Shown piece after piece: positions 26,321 through 35,114 of a stretch of DNA of 64,000 nucleotides. Position 1 is the first letter of the stretch. The number at the start of each line of letters is the position of its first letter. The notes beneath the pieces are model-generated. The model was not told the origin of the DNA. It did no database searches and saw only the letters and a list, made by a program, of their open reading frames with translations. The position numbers were made by a program, and so were the translations under genes. The DNA is taken from positions 1-64,000 of the forward strand of contig NZ_MWLN01000107.1 of the NCBI RefSeq assembly GCF_002198655.1. The letters run 5' to 3'. Source of the stretch: Kineosporia sp. A_224 (lineage in GTDB: Bacteria; Actinomycetota; Actinomycetes; Actinomycetales; Kineosporiaceae).

Positions 26321-26925
26321 CGGCACTCCTTGAGGGCCTTGGTGAGGGCCGCCATCCCGCGGGCGGTGTGCGACTTCACCGCACCGCACGAGATCCCCAT
26401 CGTCGCGGCGACCTCGGCCTCGCTGAGGTCGAGCCAGTACCGCAGGACGAGCGCCTCGCGCTGCCGGTCCGGCAGGCCGCGCAACGCGTCGACGACCTCG
26501 CGGTGGTCCTCGCGGAGCACGACCTCCTGCTCGGCGGAGCCGGCGTCGGGCAGGCCGGGTTCGGGGTGCCGCCGGACGACCTGCAGGTGCCGCAGCCGCA
26601 TCCGGACGAGGTTGCAGACGACCGACCGCAGGTACGCCGGCGCCGCGGCGGGGTCGCGCAGCCGCGGCCAGCGCAGGTAGAGCTCGCAGAACGCCTCGGA
26701 GGCGATGTCCTCGGCGTCGCCCTGCGCCCCGACCAGGACCGCGAGCCGGACGAGCTCGGTGTGGTGCCGGTCGAACAGCGCCGTCACCGCGGCCTCGCGC
26801 TCGAGGTCGCGCAGCCCGCCCCAGCCGGGCAGGCCGGGCCGCCGCGCGGACGGCGTCCCGGCGTCCGGGGCGGGCGTCCCGACATCGGGCGGTGCTGCAG
26901 GCACCGGTGCGGGGTGCTGGGTCAT
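26317..26925 (-). CDS. RNA polymerase sigma factor, SigE (ECF) family
   Basis: A 202-residue ECF sigma factor. After a Pro/Ala-rich 35-residue leader, region 2 reads ALFDRHHTELVRLAVLVGAQ with DAEDIASEAFCELYLRW, and region 4 reads LPDRQREALVLRYWLDLSE, then AEVAATMGISCGAVKSHT. The pattern matches the actinobacterial SigE-like (SACE_1888/1889) family. It starts inside the upstream symporter stop (ATGA) and overlaps the small membrane protein downstream, so symporter, sigma and membrane protein form one operon. Confidence 0.92.
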   Translation of the reverse strand: MTQHPAPVPAAPPDVGTPAPDAGTPSARRPGLPGWGGLRDLEREAAVTALFDRHHTELVRLAVLVGAQGDAEDIASEAFCELYLRWPRLRDPAAAPAYLRSVVCNLVRMRLRHLQVVRRHPEPGLPDAGSAEQEVVLREDHREVVDALRGLPDRQREALVLRYWLDLSEAEVAATMGISCGAVKSHTARGMAALTKALKECR

Positions 26926-28535
26926 GCGCCGACCTCCCACTCGCTGGCGATCTTCCCATCGATCCCGGTCCCTGTGGAGTCCAGGCCGCGGGCGACCCCG
27001 GCCCGGTCGAGCAGCGGGGTGAGGGCCGCGACGAGCCCGAGGTTCACGGCGAGCGCGACGAGCCCCGCGTAGACGCCGACCGTCGTCCCGCCGACGTCGA
27101 CCCGGGTCACCGCGACGAAGCCCTGGGCCGCGACGAGCCAGGTCCCGACGGCGACGCCCGCGACGAGGCCGGCGAGCAGCGCGTACCGGTGCGGCCGGCG
27201 CAGGAGCAGCCCGAGGACGACGGCAGGCAGCGTCTGCAGGATCCACACCCCGCCGAGGAGCTGGAGGGTGATCGCGTCCTGGGCGCGCAGCCCGACGACG
27301 AACGCGAGCGCCCCGACCTTGACGAGCACCGAGACCCAGCGGGCCACCCGGGCGACCTGCTCGGGCAGCGCCGTGGGGTTGAGGTACTCGAGGTAGACGT
27401 TGTTCGCGAAGGTCGTCGCGGCGGCCACGGACATCACCGCGGCGGGCACGAGCGCGCCGATCCCGAACGCCCCGAGGACGGCGCCGGACGCCCCGGACGG
27501 CAGCAGGTCCCGCACGAGCGCCGGGAGCGCGAGCTCGGCGTGCCCCGGCGGCACCCGGATCCCGTCGGCCCGCGCGGCGAGCCCGCCGAGGGCGAGGACG
27601 GCGAGCAGCGCCGTCCACCCGAGCAGCCCGATGCTCACCCGCCGGACGACCCCCTCGGAGCGGGCGGCGAACGTGGGCGTCAGCACGTGCGGGTACAGCA
27701 CGAGGGCGAGCGCGGACCCCACCGCGAGGCTCACGTAGGCCGACCCGAGCCCGTCGGGCAGGAGCAGGGAGCCCTGCCCGGACGGCGTGCCCGCGAGCGC
27801 GGACCCGCTCTCCCGGAACAGGTCTGCGGCCCCTCCGGTGGCCCGCAGCCCGAGGACGACGAGCAGCGCCGTCGCGGCGAACGCGAGGACGCCCTTGACG
27901 GGGGCGACGGCGGCGGGCGCACCGAGCCCGTGCCGGAACGTGCCGACGGCGAGCACCGTGAACGTCGCGGCCATCGCGAGATCGGCCGCGACGCTGTCCG
28001 CCGGGAGCCCCATGACGGTGAGCGCGGCCGACAGGCCGAGCAGCTGGAGCGCCACGTACGGCATCGTCGCGAGCAGCCCGGTCACGGCGACGGCGAGCGC
28101 GAGGGTCGGGCTGTCGAACCGGGCCCGGACGGCGTCCGCGGGCGTGAGCCAGCCGTGCCGGCGGGCGAGCCGCCACAGCCACGGCAGCACGACGTACCCG
28201 AGCTGGAAGACGACGACGACGTACGGCACGGCGAAGAAGCCGAGGCCGCCGACGCCGTAGACGAGGGCCGGGACGGCGACGAAGGTGTACGCCGTGAAGA
28301 TCGCGCCGCCGAGGAGGAACCAGGTGCGGACGGTGCCGAGGCTGCGGCCCAGCAGCGCCCACTCGACGAGCTCCTGGCCCGGTGCCACGCTGCGCCGCCA
28401 GACCGGCCGCCGGTGCGCGACGAGCGTGACGAGGGACGCCGCGCCGAGCACGAGCGCGAACGCGAGCAGTGCCGCCCGGTCGGGTCCGGGCGGCACCGCC
28501 TCGACGACGCTCCGCGGCACTGCGGTCATGTCCAT
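26922..28535 (-). CDS. Sodium:solute symporter (SSS family)
   Basis: A 537-residue permease with about 13 membrane helices. The SSS core is visible: WALLGRSLGTVRTWFLLGG, IFTAYTFVAVPALVYG, GWLTPADAVRARFDSPTLAL and LVPAAVMSVAAATTFANNVYLEY. It is a clear paralogue of the divergent permease at 28891 but has no DUF3311 partner. The related MctP-like proteins move monocarboxylates; this substrate is unknown. ATG 28535 or 28529 are both possible; no strong ribosome site. It heads the operon with the sigma factor. Confidence 0.88.
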   Translation of the reverse strand: MDMTAVPRSVVEAVPPGPDRAALLAFALVLGAASLVTLVAHRRPVWRRSVAPGQELVEWALLGRSLGTVRTWFLLGGAIFTAYTFVAVPALVYGVGGLGFFAVPYVVVVFQLGYVVLPWLWRLARRHGWLTPADAVRARFDSPTLALAVAVTGLLATMPYVALQLLGLSAALTVMGLPADSVAADLAMAATFTVLAVGTFRHGLGAPAAVAPVKGVLAFAATALLVVLGLRATGGAADLFRESGSALAGTPSGQGSLLLPDGLGSAYVSLAVGSALALVLYPHVLTPTFAARSEGVVRRVSIGLLGWTALLAVLALGGLAARADGIRVPPGHAELALPALVRDLLPSGASGAVLGAFGIGALVPAAVMSVAAATTFANNVYLEYLNPTALPEQVARVARWVSVLVKVGALAFVVGLRAQDAITLQLLGGVWILQTLPAVVLGLLLRRPHRYALLAGLVAGVAVGTWLVAAQGFVAVTRVDVGGTTVGVYAGLVALAVNLGLVAALTPLLDRAGVARGLDSTGTGIDGKIASEWEVGA

Positions 28536-28642
28536 GCAGTTGCGGGGCGGGCCCCGAAGGTTTACCCGCGACGGTGGCAACTTCTGCCCGGAACGGGGCA
28601 ACTCTCTCCACGACCCGTGTCCCCGCCTCCGAGGGAGTTCCC

Positions 28643-28894
28643 ATGACCGACGTCCCCGACGACGTGCCCGCCGGTCGGCGCGACCGATCCACGACCGGTC
28701 TGCCGACCGGCTGGTTGCTGCTCCTGCCGCTGCTGCTCGTCGTCTACCCGCCGCTGTACAACCGCACGGACCCGGAGCTGTTCGGGATCCCGTTCTTCTA
28801 CTGGTACCAGCTGGCCGTGATCCCGGTGAGCGTCGTCTGCACGACGGTCGTCTACTTCACCGGTCGCCGTACCCGCCGCGGGAGCACGCGATGA
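28643..28894 (+). CDS. DUF3311 small membrane protein
   Basis: An 83-residue protein with two membrane helices: GWLLLLPLLLVVYPPLYN and FFYWYQLAVIPVSVVCTTVV, the DUF3311 pattern (short SSS companion subunit). GAGGGAG lies 6 bases before the ATG. The stop codon overlaps the next ATG (ATGA), so it is made together with the symporter and probably supports its assembly or function. Confidence 0.85.
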   Translation: MTDVPDDVPAGRRDRSTTGLPTGWLLLLPLLLVVYPPLYNRTDPELFGIPFFYWYQLAVIPVSVVCTTVVYFTGRRTRRGSTR

Positions 28895-30582
28895 GCGAGC
28901 ACGGCGTGGAGATCGCCGTCTTCGTCGCGCTGTTCGTCCTCGTGAGCGGGCTCGGCTTCTTCGCGGCGCGCTGGCGCCGGCCGAGCACCATGGAGCACCT
29001 CGACGAGTGGGGCCTGGGCGGGCGCAGCTTCGGCTCGTGGATCACGTGGTTCCTCATCGGCGGTGACCTCTACACCGCCTACACGTTCGTCGCGGTGCCG
29101 GCGCTGCTCTTCGGGGCCGGCGCGGCCGGCTTCTTCGCCGTCCCGTACACGATCGTCGTCTACCCGATCGTCTTCTACGTGCTGCTGCGGCTGTGGTCGG
29201 TGAGCCACGTCCACGGGTTCGTCACCCCGGCCGACTTCGTCCGGGCCCGGTTCGGCAGCCCGACCCTCGCCCTCGTCGTCGCGGTCACCGGCATCGTCGC
29301 GACGATGCCCTACATCGCGCTCCAGCTCGTCGGGATCGAGGCCGTCCTCAAGACCGTCGGGGTGCGCGGGCACGTCCCGATCGTCGTGGCGTTCGCGATC
29401 CTCGCGGCGTACACGTACAACTCGGGGCTGCGGGCGCCGGCGCTCATCGCGTTCGTCAAGGACGCGCTCATCTACGTCGTCATCATCGCGGCGGTGATCT
29501 ACATCCCGGCGAAGCTCGGCGGCTGGGGGGCGGTCTTCGACGCGGCGGACGCGAAGTTCGCGAAGTCCCCGAACCCCGGGGACGGCACGCTGCTCCCCGG
29601 CGCCGGCCAGGTCCAGTACGCGACGCTCGCCTTCGGCTCGGCGCTCGCGCTGTTCCTCTACCCGCACTCGGTGACCGGCGTCCTCGCCTCGAAGGACCGG
29701 GGCACGATCAAGCGGAACATGGCCGCGTTGCCCGCGTACTCGCTGCTCCTCGGGCTGCTCGCCCTGCTCGGGTACATGGCGATCGCCGCGGGCACCAAGC
29801 CGTTGCCGACGGGCGACACGCTCGTGGCGACCGACGGCACGGTGATCGGCCCGAAGACCGACGGCAACACCGTGATCCCCTTGCTCTTCGACCAGATGTT
29901 CCCGCACTGGTTCGCCGGTGTGGCGTTCGCGGCGGTCGCGATCGGCGCCCTCGTGCCGGCGGCGATCATGAGCATCGCGGCCGCGAACCTGTGGACCCGC
30001 AACGTCTACCGCGAGTACCTCAACAAGGACGCGACCCCCGCCCAGGAGGCGCGCAGCAGCAAGATCGCCTCGCTCGTCGTCAAGCTCGGGGCCCTCGTCG
30101 CGATCCTCGCCCTCGACCCGCAGTTCTCCATCGACCTGCAGCTCATCGGCGGCGTGATCATCCTGCAGACCCTGCCCGCCGTGGGCCTGGGGCTGTTCAC
30201 CCGCTGGTTCCACCGTGGCGGGCTCGTCGCCGGCTGGGCCGCCGGGATGGCGGCCGGCTGGTGGCTGCTGTGGAACGTCCCGCAGACAGCCGTCACGGCG
30301 GCCGGTCCGAAGATCCTTCGCGAGCACTTCGGCGGCTCGGCCTTCAAGCTCAGCGAGCTCGGGTTCGACACGACCGTCACGGTCTACGCGGGCTTCCTCG
30401 CCGTGCTCGTCAACCTCGTCGTCGCCGTCCTCGTGACGCTCGCGCTGCGGGCGGCCGGCGTCGCCGACGGCCGGGACGCGACGTCCGGGCCGGACTACGA
30501 CGCCGACGCCGGCGACCCGCGCGTGCACGACCTCGACCTGCACGCGCCCGTCACGGTGCGGGAGGAGCCGGTGCAGTACTAG
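28891..30582 (+). CDS. Sodium:solute symporter (MctP-like)
   Basis: A 563-residue SSS permease with about 13 membrane helices. Motifs: EWGLGGRSFGSWITWFLIGG, DLYTAYTFVAVPALLFG, GFVTPADFVRARFGSPTL, ALVPAAIMSIAAANLWTRNVY and IGGVIILQTLPAVGLGLFTR. The last 40 residues are a hydrophilic acidic tail. The DUF3311 + SSS pair is typical of actinobacterial monocarboxylate or similar organic-acid uptake. Start overlaps DUF3311. Divergent from its paralogue. Confidence 0.9.
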   Translation: MSEHGVEIAVFVALFVLVSGLGFFAARWRRPSTMEHLDEWGLGGRSFGSWITWFLIGGDLYTAYTFVAVPALLFGAGAAGFFAVPYTIVVYPIVFYVLLRLWSVSHVHGFVTPADFVRARFGSPTLALVVAVTGIVATMPYIALQLVGIEAVLKTVGVRGHVPIVVAFAILAAYTYNSGLRAPALIAFVKDALIYVVIIAAVIYIPAKLGGWGAVFDAADAKFAKSPNPGDGTLLPGAGQVQYATLAFGSALALFLYPHSVTGVLASKDRGTIKRNMAALPAYSLLLGLLALLGYMAIAAGTKPLPTGDTLVATDGTVIGPKTDGNTVIPLLFDQMFPHWFAGVAFAAVAIGALVPAAIMSIAAANLWTRNVYREYLNKDATPAQEARSSKIASLVVKLGALVAILALDPQFSIDLQLIGGVIILQTLPAVGLGLFTRWFHRGGLVAGWAAGMAAGWWLLWNVPQTAVTAAGPKILREHFGGSAFKLSELGFDTTVTVYAGFLAVLVNLVVAVLVTLALRAAGVADGRDATSGPDYDADAGDPRVHDLDLHAPVTVREEPVQY

Positions 30583-31558: not shown

Positions 31559-32413
31559 ATGGCTGACTGGAAGAGAGTGACGCGCGACGCCGTCGTCGCC
31601 GCGGTGCACGAGTACGACCAGGTCGGCCAGGCGGAGTTCCTCGCCCGGCACGGCTTCGGCCCGGCGACGGGATACCTGCTCGAGCACGAGGGGAACCTCT
31701 ACGACTCCAAGGCGATCGCCGGCGTCGCGTACGAGCTCGCGACGGGCGAGAGCCTGTCGTCCGACGACTTCCGCGGCGGCAGGGCCGGGTCCGCGGCCGT
31801 GCTCCGTCGCCTGGAGTTCGTCGTCCAGAGCCCGGAACCGACCGGCCCGGCCGCCGCGCGCCGCCCGGGCACCCACTGGGCGGACGACGAGAGCCCGGTC
31901 GCCTTCGCCGACGCCCAGGCGCTGTGGGCGGACGCCGCCCGTGACCGGCTCATCGCCGTCGCCGGGGTCTACCACGCGATCACGACGTACAAGGAGCTCT
32001 CGAAGCAGGTCCAGGACGACTCCGGGGTCCGGACGACGCAGCTCATGCACTACTGGATCGGCGACGTCCTCGGGCTCGTCGCGCTCGACTGCGCCCGCCG
32101 CGAGGAACCCCTGCTCTCGTCGCTGTGCGTCAACGCCGAGGGGTCGGTCGGCCCGAGCTACGCACCGTCGGTCGCCTCGCTGCGCGGCGCCGAGCCCAAG
32201 GACGCCGAGGACCACGCGGCCCTCGAGCGGCTCGCCTGCTACAAGCACTTCGGCGCGACGATCCCGGCCGGCGGTGGCCGCCCGGCCCTGACCCCCGCCG
32301 TCCAGCGCCGCAAGGACCGGGCGGCCGCCCAGCGCCCCGAGCGCCGCGGCGCAGTCTGCCCGACGTGCTTCGTGGAGCTCCCCGTCACCGGGCGCTGCAT
32401 GCTCTGCGGCTGA
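31559..32413 (+). CDS. ScoMcrA-like N-terminal head domain protein with zinc-ribbon tail
   Basis: A 284-residue protein. Residues 1-90 read WKRVTRDAVVAAVHEYDQVG, AEFLARHGFGPATGYLLEHEG and LYDSKAIAGVAYELATGESL, which I recognise as the head domain found at the front of ScoMcrA-type modified-DNA nucleases. The rest (about 110-250) is a helical domain with HAITTYKELSKQVQDDSG and TQLMHYWIGDVLG that I do not recognise, ending with CPTCFVELPVTGRCMLCG, a four-cysteine zinc ribbon. No SRA or HNH domain is present, so it lacks the usual nuclease part. Genes around it are housekeeping. Confidence 0.65.
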   Translation: MADWKRVTRDAVVAAVHEYDQVGQAEFLARHGFGPATGYLLEHEGNLYDSKAIAGVAYELATGESLSSDDFRGGRAGSAAVLRRLEFVVQSPEPTGPAAARRPGTHWADDESPVAFADAQALWADAARDRLIAVAGVYHAITTYKELSKQVQDDSGVRTTQLMHYWIGDVLGLVALDCARREEPLLSSLCVNAEGSVGPSYAPSVASLRGAEPKDAEDHAALERLACYKHFGATIPAGGGRPALTPAVQRRKDRAAAQRPERRGAVCPTCFVELPVTGRCMLCG

Positions 32414-32533: not shown

Positions 32534-34012
32534 GTGCCAGTGCCGCTGCGTGTCGTCGTCGTGGGCGGCGGGGTCAGCGGCCTCACCGCCGCCTACCACC
32601 TCGCGCACCGGCTCCCGGCCGAGACCGGCGTCGCACCGTCGATCACGCTGCTGGAGGCCGGTGAGCGGCTCGGCGGCAAGGTGACGACGCGGCACGTCGC
32701 CGGCATCGCCGTCGACACCGGCCCGGACGCGCTCCTCGTCCGGGACGCCTGCGTCCGGGACCTGCTCCTCGACCTCGGGCTCGCCGACGCCCTGAGCCGA
32801 CCGGCCTCCCGGCGGGCCTACGTCTGGGCCCGGGGCGCCCTGCGGCCGCTGCCCGCGATGTCGCTCTTCGGCGTGCCGGACAACCCGTTCGCCCTCGTCC
32901 GCACCGGGATCCTCACCGTGCGCGGCGCGGTCCGCGCGGCGGCCGACCTGGTCCTCCCGCGGCGCCGGCTGCCCGCGGACCCGAGCATCGCCGAGCTGCT
33001 GCGCCCCCGCCTCGGCGCCGAGGTCTTCGACCTGCTCGTCGAGCCGATGCTCGGCGGGGTGCACGCCGGCCGCGCCGCGGAGCTCAGCGCGCGCAGCGCC
33101 GTCCCGGACGTGCACCGGGCCGTCACCGCCGGCCGCAGCGCGTACCTGTCGCTGCGCGAGCGGCGGCGCCGCGCGTCGGTCCCCGCGGACCCGGGCCGGA
33201 CGACGCCCGACGGGACGCCCCGGATCGCCCCGGGGATGGTCACCCTGCCCGGCGGGCTCCAGGGCCTCACCGACGCGATCGCCGCGGCCACCCCCGGCGC
33301 CGACCTGCGCACCGGCGCCCTCGTCGCCGCCCTGGACCGGGTCGAGGACGGCACCTGGACGGTCCGGCTCGCGGACGGCGAGGAGCTCACGGCCGACGTG
33401 GTCGTCCTCGCCGCCCCGGCGCACGCGACCGCACGGCTCCTCCTGCCCCACTCGGCGGCTGCCGCCGACGCCCTCGACGCCATCCCGTACGCCGGCGTCG
33501 CGACCGTCTACCTCGCCTACCGCACGCAGGACGTCGGCCGCCCGCTCGACGGCACGGGCTTCCTCGTCCCGCCGAGCGAGGACCGGTTCCTCGTCGGCTG
33601 CACGTGGACCACCGCCAAGTGGGAGCACCACGCCGACACGGTCGCGCGCGGCGTCACCGTCGTCCGGTGCGCCGTCGGCCGGCACGGCGACCGGCGCTGG
33701 CAGGGCATGGACGACGGCGCGGTCGTCGACGCCGTCCACCTCGAGGTGGCCGAGGCGCTGGACGTCCGCACCCGCCCTCTCGAGACGGCCGTGCAGCGCT
33801 GGCCGGGTGCGATGCCGCAGTACACCGTCGGGCACGAGGCACGCCTCGCCGTCCTCGACACCGAGCTCGCCGCCCTGCCCGGCGTCCACCTCACGGGTGC
33901 CGGCTACCGCGGCGTGGGCCTGTCCGGCTGCATCGCCCAGGCCGACGCGCTCGCGACCCGGATCGCGCTCGCCGCGGCCCGCAGGGCCGAGCCGGTCCGG
34001 CCGGCCGGCTGA
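32534..34012 (+). CDS. hemY: Protoporphyrinogen/coproporphyrinogen oxidase
   Basis: A 492-residue FAD oxidase. The dinucleotide motif VVVVGGGVSGLTAAYHLA is at 7-24, followed by LEAGERLGGKVTT and GIAVDTGPDALLVRD; the C-terminus has the second FAD contact, LTGAGYRGVGLSGCIAQAD. In actinobacteria HemY oxidises coproporphyrinogen III in the coproporphyrin-dependent heme route. No hemE, hemQ or hemH lies within the window, so it is a solo copy here. GTG 32534 follows a GGGGGT stretch. Confidence 0.9.
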   Translation: MPVPLRVVVVGGGVSGLTAAYHLAHRLPAETGVAPSITLLEAGERLGGKVTTRHVAGIAVDTGPDALLVRDACVRDLLLDLGLADALSRPASRRAYVWARGALRPLPAMSLFGVPDNPFALVRTGILTVRGAVRAAADLVLPRRRLPADPSIAELLRPRLGAEVFDLLVEPMLGGVHAGRAAELSARSAVPDVHRAVTAGRSAYLSLRERRRRASVPADPGRTTPDGTPRIAPGMVTLPGGLQGLTDAIAAATPGADLRTGALVAALDRVEDGTWTVRLADGEELTADVVVLAAPAHATARLLLPHSAAAADALDAIPYAGVATVYLAYRTQDVGRPLDGTGFLVPPSEDRFLVGCTWTTAKWEHHADTVARGVTVVRCAVGRHGDRRWQGMDDGAVVDAVHLEVAEALDVRTRPLETAVQRWPGAMPQYTVGHEARLAVLDTELAALPGVHLTGAGYRGVGLSGCIAQADALATRIALAAARRAEPVRPAG

Positions 34013-34038
34013 ACCCGGCGAGCGCGGCGGGCCCTCGT

Positions 34039-34052
34039 GCGGCACGTGCCGC
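34039..34052. promoter_or_regulatory. 14-bp perfect palindrome between hemY and dinB-like genes
   Basis: GCGGCAC/GTGCCGC, 19 bases before the polymerase start. It may be an operator, or a short terminator for hemY. It is not a typical actinobacterial LexA box (GAAC-N4-GTTC). Confidence 0.35.
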
Positions 34053-34070
34053 GTCGGGTTCACTGGTCCG

Positions 34071-35114
34071 ATGGACGGCGCGACCCGCCCCTGGGTGCTG
34101 CACGTGGACCTCGACCAGTTCATCGCGGCGGTCGAGGTGCTGCGGCGCCCGGAGCTCGCCGGCCTGCCGGTCATCGTCGGCGGCCGCGGCGACCCGACCG
34201 AGCGGGCCGTCGTCTCGACCGCGTCGTACGAGGCGCGCGCCTTCGGTGTCGGCTCCGGGATGCCGCTGCGGATCGCGGCCCGCAAGGTGCCGGACGCCGT
34301 CCTGCTGCCGGTCGACGCGCCCGCCTACACCGCGGCGTCCGAGCAGGTCATGGCGGTGCTGCGCGCCCACGAGGGCGCCGTCGTCGAGGTGCTCGGCTGG
34401 GACGAGGCGTTCGTCGGGGTCCGCACCGACGACCCGGAGGCCGTCGCCCGCGCCCTGCAGGCCGCGGTGCTCGCCGCCACCCGGCTGCACTGCTCGGTCG
34501 GCATCGGGGACACCAAGGTCCGGGCGAAGATCGCGACCGACTTCGGCAAGCCGCGCGGGGTCTTCCGGCTGACGGCCGCGAACTGGTTCGACGTCATGGC
34601 GGACCGGCCGACCCGGGCCCTGTGGGGCGTCGGCGCGAAGGTCTCCGCGCGCCTGGCGACGCACGGGATCACGACCGTCCGCGAGCTCGCGGACGCCGAC
34701 GTCCCTACCCTCGTCGCCGAGTTCGGTCCGCGGATCGGCACCTGGTACGCCGATCTCGGCCACGGGCGCGGTTCCGCGACGGTCGACGACACCCCCTGGG
34801 TCGCCCGCGGGCACAGCCGCGAGCACACCTACCAGCAGGACCTCACGGCACCCGAGGAGATCGCGGCCGCACTGCGGGCCCTGGTCACCGAGGTGCTGGC
34901 GGACATCGTCGCCGAGGGCCGCCCCGTCGTCCGCCTGACGCTCAAGGTGCGCTACAAACCCTTCTTCACCAAGACGTTCAGCCGCACGTTGAAGGCGCCG
35001 ACCACCGACGCGGCCCTCCTGGAAGGCGAGTCACTCGCGCTCGTCGCCCGGCGCGAGGAGGGCCGGGCGGTCCGGCTGCTGGGCCTGCGGATGGAGATGA
35101 CGCCGCCGCCGTGA
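34071..35114 (+). CDS. dinB: Y-family DNA polymerase (DinB-like)
   Basis: A 347-residue translesion polymerase. The metal-binding aspartates are D13 and D15 in HVDLDQFIAAVEVL, and D111-E112 in EVLGWDEAFVG; the usual FF of pol IV palms is changed to QFI. The helix-hairpin region is ALWGVGAKVSARLATHGI, and the little-finger ends with KTFSRTLKAPTTDAALL. It looks like the actinobacterial DinB2/DinB3-type branch. No beta-clamp binding tail is evident: the C-terminus stops at MEMTPPP. Start ATG 34071 lacks a ribosome site; TTCACT precedes it by 6 bases. Confidence 0.88.
   Translation: MDGATRPWVLHVDLDQFIAAVEVLRRPELAGLPVIVGGRGDPTERAVVSTASYEARAFGVGSGMPLRIAARKVPDAVLLPVDAPAYTAASEQVMAVLRAHEGAVVEVLGWDEAFVGVRTDDPEAVARALQAAVLAATRLHCSVGIGDTKVRAKIATDFGKPRGVFRLTAANWFDVMADRPTRALWGVGAKVSARLATHGITTVRELADADVPTLVAEFGPRIGTWYADLGHGRGSATVDDTPWVARGHSREHTYQQDLTAPEEIAAALRALVTEVLADIVAEGRPVVRLTLKVRYKPFFTKTFSRTLKAPTTDAALLEGESLALVARREEGRAVRLLGLRMEMTPPP

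Follow-up and report, generated by a model that had tools for sequence, protein, structure and literature searches.

A gene of the actinobacterium Kineosporia sp. A_224 encodes a protein of 284 aa that joins a head domain of the ScoMcrA type, a middle domain (the core) that is probably a divergent winged helix of the AGT/ATL type, and a C-terminal putative zinc ribbon. The ORF begins with ATG and occupies positions 31559 to 32413 (+) of the window, the 64,000-nt stretch that was analyzed (positions 1 to 64,000 of contig NZ_MWLN01000107.1). This gene is conserved and functional.

Conservation and selection

Full-length orthologues were present in two further Kineosporia genomes (96%-98% identity) and in Kribbella (49%). 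A third genus has one as well (L042, 47%), with the same three parts. The comparison of the close copies gave a dN/dS of 0.07-0.13 for the whole gene and of 0.04-0.08 for the core, the lowest of the gene, and the tail showed no amino acid changes at all. The gene is under purifying selection, which is strongest in the core. Searches of Pfam and NCBIfam with the 284-aa protein gave no match, and PHROGs returned scattered weak matches only.

The head domain

The first-pass annotation had recognized a ScoMcrA-like head and had named the lack of a match in a profile search as the refutation; that case did not arise, and the assignment was borne out by three comparisons. Residues 6-93 matched ScoMcrA (5zmm_A) in a phmmer search of the PDB with an E-value of 3.8e-15; the PADLOC model mREase_IV matched residues 6-91 (E 2.7e-16), the aligned model positions being 5-92 of 560; and residues 5-94 of the AlphaFold2 model superposed on 5zmm_B with Z 11.8, at 1.5 Å over 72 residues and 44% identity. 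We delimit the head as residues 1-93 (31559-31837, +).

ScoMcrA (Sco4631) is a type IV restriction enzyme with the order head, SBD, SRA, and HNH. The Kineosporia protein shares the N-terminal head with it, but its core and ribbon are unrelated and no SBD, SRA, or HNH part was matched: there was no Pfam SRA match, and the PADLOC match to the ScoMcrA type was confined to the head. Neither HNH nor any other nuclease family was found in Pfam, NCBIfam, or PADLOC, in agreement with the annotation, which had reported no nuclease. The protein is thus not filed as a ScoMcrA-type enzyme.

The annotation had also suggested, from the head, that the protein could read modified DNA. Such a role of the head is not supported, because in ScoMcrA the reading is done by the SBD and SRA domains, whereas the head, a small domain on a flexible attachment, has no known function (PMC6224610). 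Heads also occur at the N-terminus of HNH and SRA-HNH proteins (L066, L080, L082). On an E. coli plasmid, a 250-aa head protein adjoins IS26 and mph(A) (L063, 3947-4696) and matches the PADLOC candidate PDC-S36 (E 2.2e-39); more than 1000 plasmid records matched the head query and, among the matches listed, most were of this type.

Predicted structure of the middle domain

The AlphaFold2 model of the whole protein had a pLDDT of 92.1, and a separate model of the core of a relative reached 95.2. A low-confidence linker (residues 94-104; 31838-31870, +), in which residues 98-101 have a pLDDT below 50, leads from the head to residues 105-238 (31871-32272, +), which are predicted with high confidence to form a separate domain of the winged-helix type with an AGT/ATL-like arrangement. 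The annotation had described this part as an unknown helical domain; it is indeed unassigned by Pfam and NCBIfam, and the prediction replaces "helical" with a winged-helix-type fold.

In the VIA-align comparison of the full model, the 13 rows that follow ScoMcrA were all AGT or ATL proteins, among them 4bhb (Z 5.7, 3.8 Å over 88 residues), 1eh7 (Z 5.5), and the ATLs of S. pombe (3gva, Z 4.8) and Vibrio (2kif, Z 4.6). With the core-only model the best 10 rows were again all AGT or ATL, among them 5llq (Z 5.5, 3.5 Å over 82 residues). For both models these matches are modest, with Z 4.6-5.7 over about 82-91 residues at 3.3-4.1 Å. Foldseek found nothing significant in the PDB for the core-only model (best E 1.2), a PDB profile search with the core gave no significant match, and the likeness to AGT/ATL emerges only from the second look with VIA-align and from profile comparisons. 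Since the Z scores were modest and Foldseek alone had no significant PDB match, sequence was tested separately.

Sequence comparison with AGT and ATL

Profile-profile comparison (hhalign) of the actinobacterial core with AGT domains gave a probability of 40% (P 3e-4), and the alignment was in register at the T-x-Y-x-x-L helix as well as at the G-Y hairpin. When homologues encoded by phage PaBG and by plasmids, together with the compact proteins of actinobacteria, were added to the family, the values rose to 75%-90% against AGT (P about 1e-6 to 3e-5) and were 53%-61% against ATL; several of the strongest profile matches span only about 30-37 columns. The controls (ScpB, Rrf2, PadR, and reversed profiles) stayed at 0.1%-1.1%. 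In the hhalign register, Tyr144 of the motif T-T-Y-K-E-L (31988-31990, +) is aligned with the conserved tyrosine of AGT/ATL, and this helix-turn-helix Tyr is present in 27 of the 32 relatives.

The motif PCHR defines the AGTs and, with W in place of C, most ATLs (PMC10779285). The search for P[CWA]HR, which covers the alkyl-acceptor PCHR and the PWHR of ATL, was negative in all 42 sequences. Conservation in the core is that of W, L, A, P, Y, and G plus one Arg: W123 is invariant among the 32 relatives, W166 occurs in 31 of them, and R224 is the only invariant charged residue. The arginine finger of AGT sits roughly at the column that precedes the W of W-I-G, and the alignment has no Arg in that column.

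The core also differs in charge. It is acidic, with a pI of 4.9 in the Kineosporia protein and a family mean pI of 5.3 at a net charge of -4.8, whereas AGT domains from related genomes have a pI of 9.5 and a net charge of +3.2, and ATLs from related genomes a pI of 7.7 and a net charge of +0.4.

Taken by model and profile, the core is probably a divergent winged helix of the AGT/ATL type. Its predicted fold resembles that of AGT, Ogt, and MGMT (PF01035), as does its succession of a helix, T-x-Y-x-x-L, a second helix, the P-x-L segment, and the G-Y hairpin, but it has no PCHR, no alkyl-acceptor Cys, and, by alignment, no Arg near the finger position; in addition, it has a further conserved R-L-x-C-Y helix and is not recognized by Pfam. 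The ATLs (YbaZ, Atl1) have a catalytically dead AGT-like fold, as the core probably does, and supplied 3gva and 2kif among the best fold matches; the core differs from them in lacking PWHR and in its C-terminal part. The host genome encodes a separate ATL homologue (L131) and an AGT (L117). The protein is filed neither as an AGT nor as an ATL.

The C-terminal ribbon

A basic linker (residues 239-266; 32273-32356, +) precedes a zinc-ribbon-like module (residues 267-283; 32357-32407, +) of the form C-x2-C-x9-C-x2-C; linker plus ribbon have a pI of 10.6. The four-Cys ribbon proposed in the annotation was recovered as two CxxC-type knuckles, C267/C270 and C280/C283, a putative zinc ribbon. Three of these Cys are invariant across 33 relatives, and the fourth position holds C in 29, H in 3, and Y in 1.

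Among 297 genomes of the order, 78 carried the same C-terminal ribbon. It is a module common to many proteins and not a feature specific to the core family, because 22 of 50 ribbon proteins examined had neither head nor core ahead of it; the choice of the 50 leaned to such cases, so this fraction is not a frequency estimate. Many small actinobacterial proteins carry the ribbon like a tag behind unrelated front ends (L269-L288, L256, L260, L268).

Occurrence and domain combinations

Within the order, 51 of 396 genomes had a core match; this figure takes in the genomes with a head as well as weaker matches. Sampling across the phylum gave 11 of 396 genomes, among them the window genome and two borderline matches. 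The majority of core proteins consist of core and ribbon without a head. Proteins of roughly 140-150 residues in which the ribbon directly follows the head were found in genera of one family (f9). In L047 and L049, a DUF7662-like domain precedes the core, as judged by likeness to the neighboring protein L092_2, on which Pfam confirmed DUF7662. One genome (G455, contig 15) has, within about 18 kb, a complete core-ribbon copy and further copies that appear broken (L088, L089).

In the core tree, with compact relatives as outgroup, the three head-bearing cores lie near the base of the core-ribbon clade, and in the head tree the head-ribbon proteins group with the head-core-ribbon proteins. The simplest reading suggests an ancestral three-domain form from which the two-domain forms arose by loss of a part; this reading depends on a root placed by an outgroup across a long branch and on a head tree whose support is moderate. 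A split system of two subunits (head-ribbon and core-ribbon) was considered and rejected, as no f9 genome appeared in both lists; the genome samples of the two lists were not identical.

Outside the actinobacteria, the core profile matched a protein of phage PaBG (E 2.6e-4), which was also found, as S5VMJ6, by a fold search of a viral library and which matches Pfam PF01035 with an E-value of 0.009, below the curated cut-off. This jumbo phage protein has 116 aa and a single domain (L227, 1501-1851, -). PaBG_00281 and its plasmid relatives in Nostoc, Enterobacter, and Deinococcus have a homologous core (hhalign 96%, P 5e-9), but they consist of one short domain without head or ribbon, and the Kineosporia protein has all three parts. 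Scans of IMG/VR with four queries returned PaBG itself as the sole relative. The core family is bridged to the phage and plasmid relatives by compact core proteins of actinobacteria (L289-L295), which are about 100 aa long and lack a ribbon. A Limimaricola plasmid encodes a 442-aa protein with a core-like domain at its start (L232, 1465-2793); the EVE-like and GIY-YIG-like features of its remainder were seen by eye, were confirmed by no search, and are given no weight.

Proposed function

Our favored reading, a tentative one, is that the protein works in actinobacteria as an adaptor, conserved and without enzymatic activity, that senses DNA, recruits partners, or both. The middle domain would be a catalytically dead branch of the AGT/ATL winged helices that most likely contacts DNA, perhaps DNA bearing an unusual base or a lesion, and the head and the ribbon on its basic linker would recruit partners or place them. 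That the protein binds DNA, recognizes altered DNA, and recruits is inferred. By analogy, ATL proteins bind at a lesion without chemistry of their own; they act through the recruitment of repair (PMC10779285). In type IV enzymes winged-helix domains are known as modification sensors (PMC11037411). The Kineosporia protein likewise has a predicted winged-helix-type domain and shares a part with modification-dependent restriction enzymes, but here the domain is not fused to a nuclease, and the likeness to those sensors is one of fold type. A reader of altered DNA that serves regulation, as the annotation had suggested, or recruitment would fit the evidence, with the reading then assigned to the middle domain instead of the head.

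Kleisin-associated winged helices serve as protein-binding scaffolds. A serious rival, which we consider somewhat unlikely, is that the core is such a scaffold in a protein-protein adaptor that makes no DNA contact through it, so that contact with nucleic acid is left to a partner or to the basic ribbon tail. The acidity of the core makes this rival serious and counts against non-specific DNA binding of the AGT kind; winged-helix subunits of ScpAB and JetABC appear among the weaker fold matches of the full model, and the ribbon on so many unrelated front ends suggests a common docking tag. Against it, the closest folds in both comparisons are the DNA-repair proteins AGT and ATL rather than ScpB, and the ScpB profile control reached 0.3%.

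Extending the adaptor reading, the core may be a new branch of the AGT/ATL fold, catalytically inert and widely spread in bacteria and jumbo phages, that reads modified or damaged DNA, with the three-domain protein as the ancestral actinobacterial form that links heads of the restriction type to lesion sensing of the repair type. We consider this combined claim unlikely as a whole.

The genomic setting bears on two further readings. Downstream of the Kineosporia gene lie a hemG-like amine oxidase gene and, two genes downstream, a gene for a translesion polymerase of the DinB/IMS type (33807-35114, +). The hemG-like neighbor recurs within the genus only, and no gene neighbors conserved across genera were found. 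Two permease-like genes are also present in the window (28285-30582, +, and 26922-28601, -), sodium:solute symporter-like by eye and without a Pfam match. No link to the SOS response was drawn from the nearby dinB: no SOS box (CGAAC-N4-GTTCG) lies directly upstream of the gene, and matches with one or two mismatches are frequent across the GC-rich window.

It is quite unlikely that the protein regulates transcription by sequence-specific binding through a winged-helix core. The predicted fold, the single chromosomal gene with no nuclease, and the lack of close viral relatives in IMG/VR would suit a regulator; no neighbor or target gene is conserved across genera, however, the head belongs to restriction enzymes, and the Rrf2 and PadR profile controls did not exceed 1.1%.

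Still less probable is a non-cutting sensor of a restriction or defense response whose nuclease is encoded elsewhere. The housekeeping setting described in the annotation fits the hemG-like and DinB-type genes of the window but not the Kribbella orthologue, which lies among defense-like genes (GmrSD_N and a GajB-like helicase). These genes hint at a defense sensor, as do the DUF262 and EVE genes that adjoin the Nostoc relative and the heads of the HNH and SRA-HNH enzymes and of the protein matching PDC-S36. However, no defense genes were found adjoining the window copy or the L042 copy, there is no conserved partner gene, and the head search found no second head protein in the genome itself.

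A nuclease with an unrecognized core, the other proposal of the annotation, is strongly disfavored: the head often fronts nucleases, but no nuclease domain was matched in Pfam, NCBIfam, or PADLOC, the predicted fold is AGT/ATL-like, and the core of the 32 relatives has no invariant D/E/K/H set that could stand beside R224. That the gene is what decay has left of a type IV restriction enzyme, as a head without a nuclease might bring to mind, has next to no probability: purifying selection contradicts decay, orthologues occur in three genera, and the core corresponds to no part of ScoMcrA.

If the adaptor reading is true, the head of a restriction enzyme is used outside restriction, and the protein would offer a simple, nuclease-free context for testing the function of the ScoMcrA head. 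The alkyltransferase fold, known from direct DNA repair and lesion flagging, would gain a further branch in bacteria and phages.
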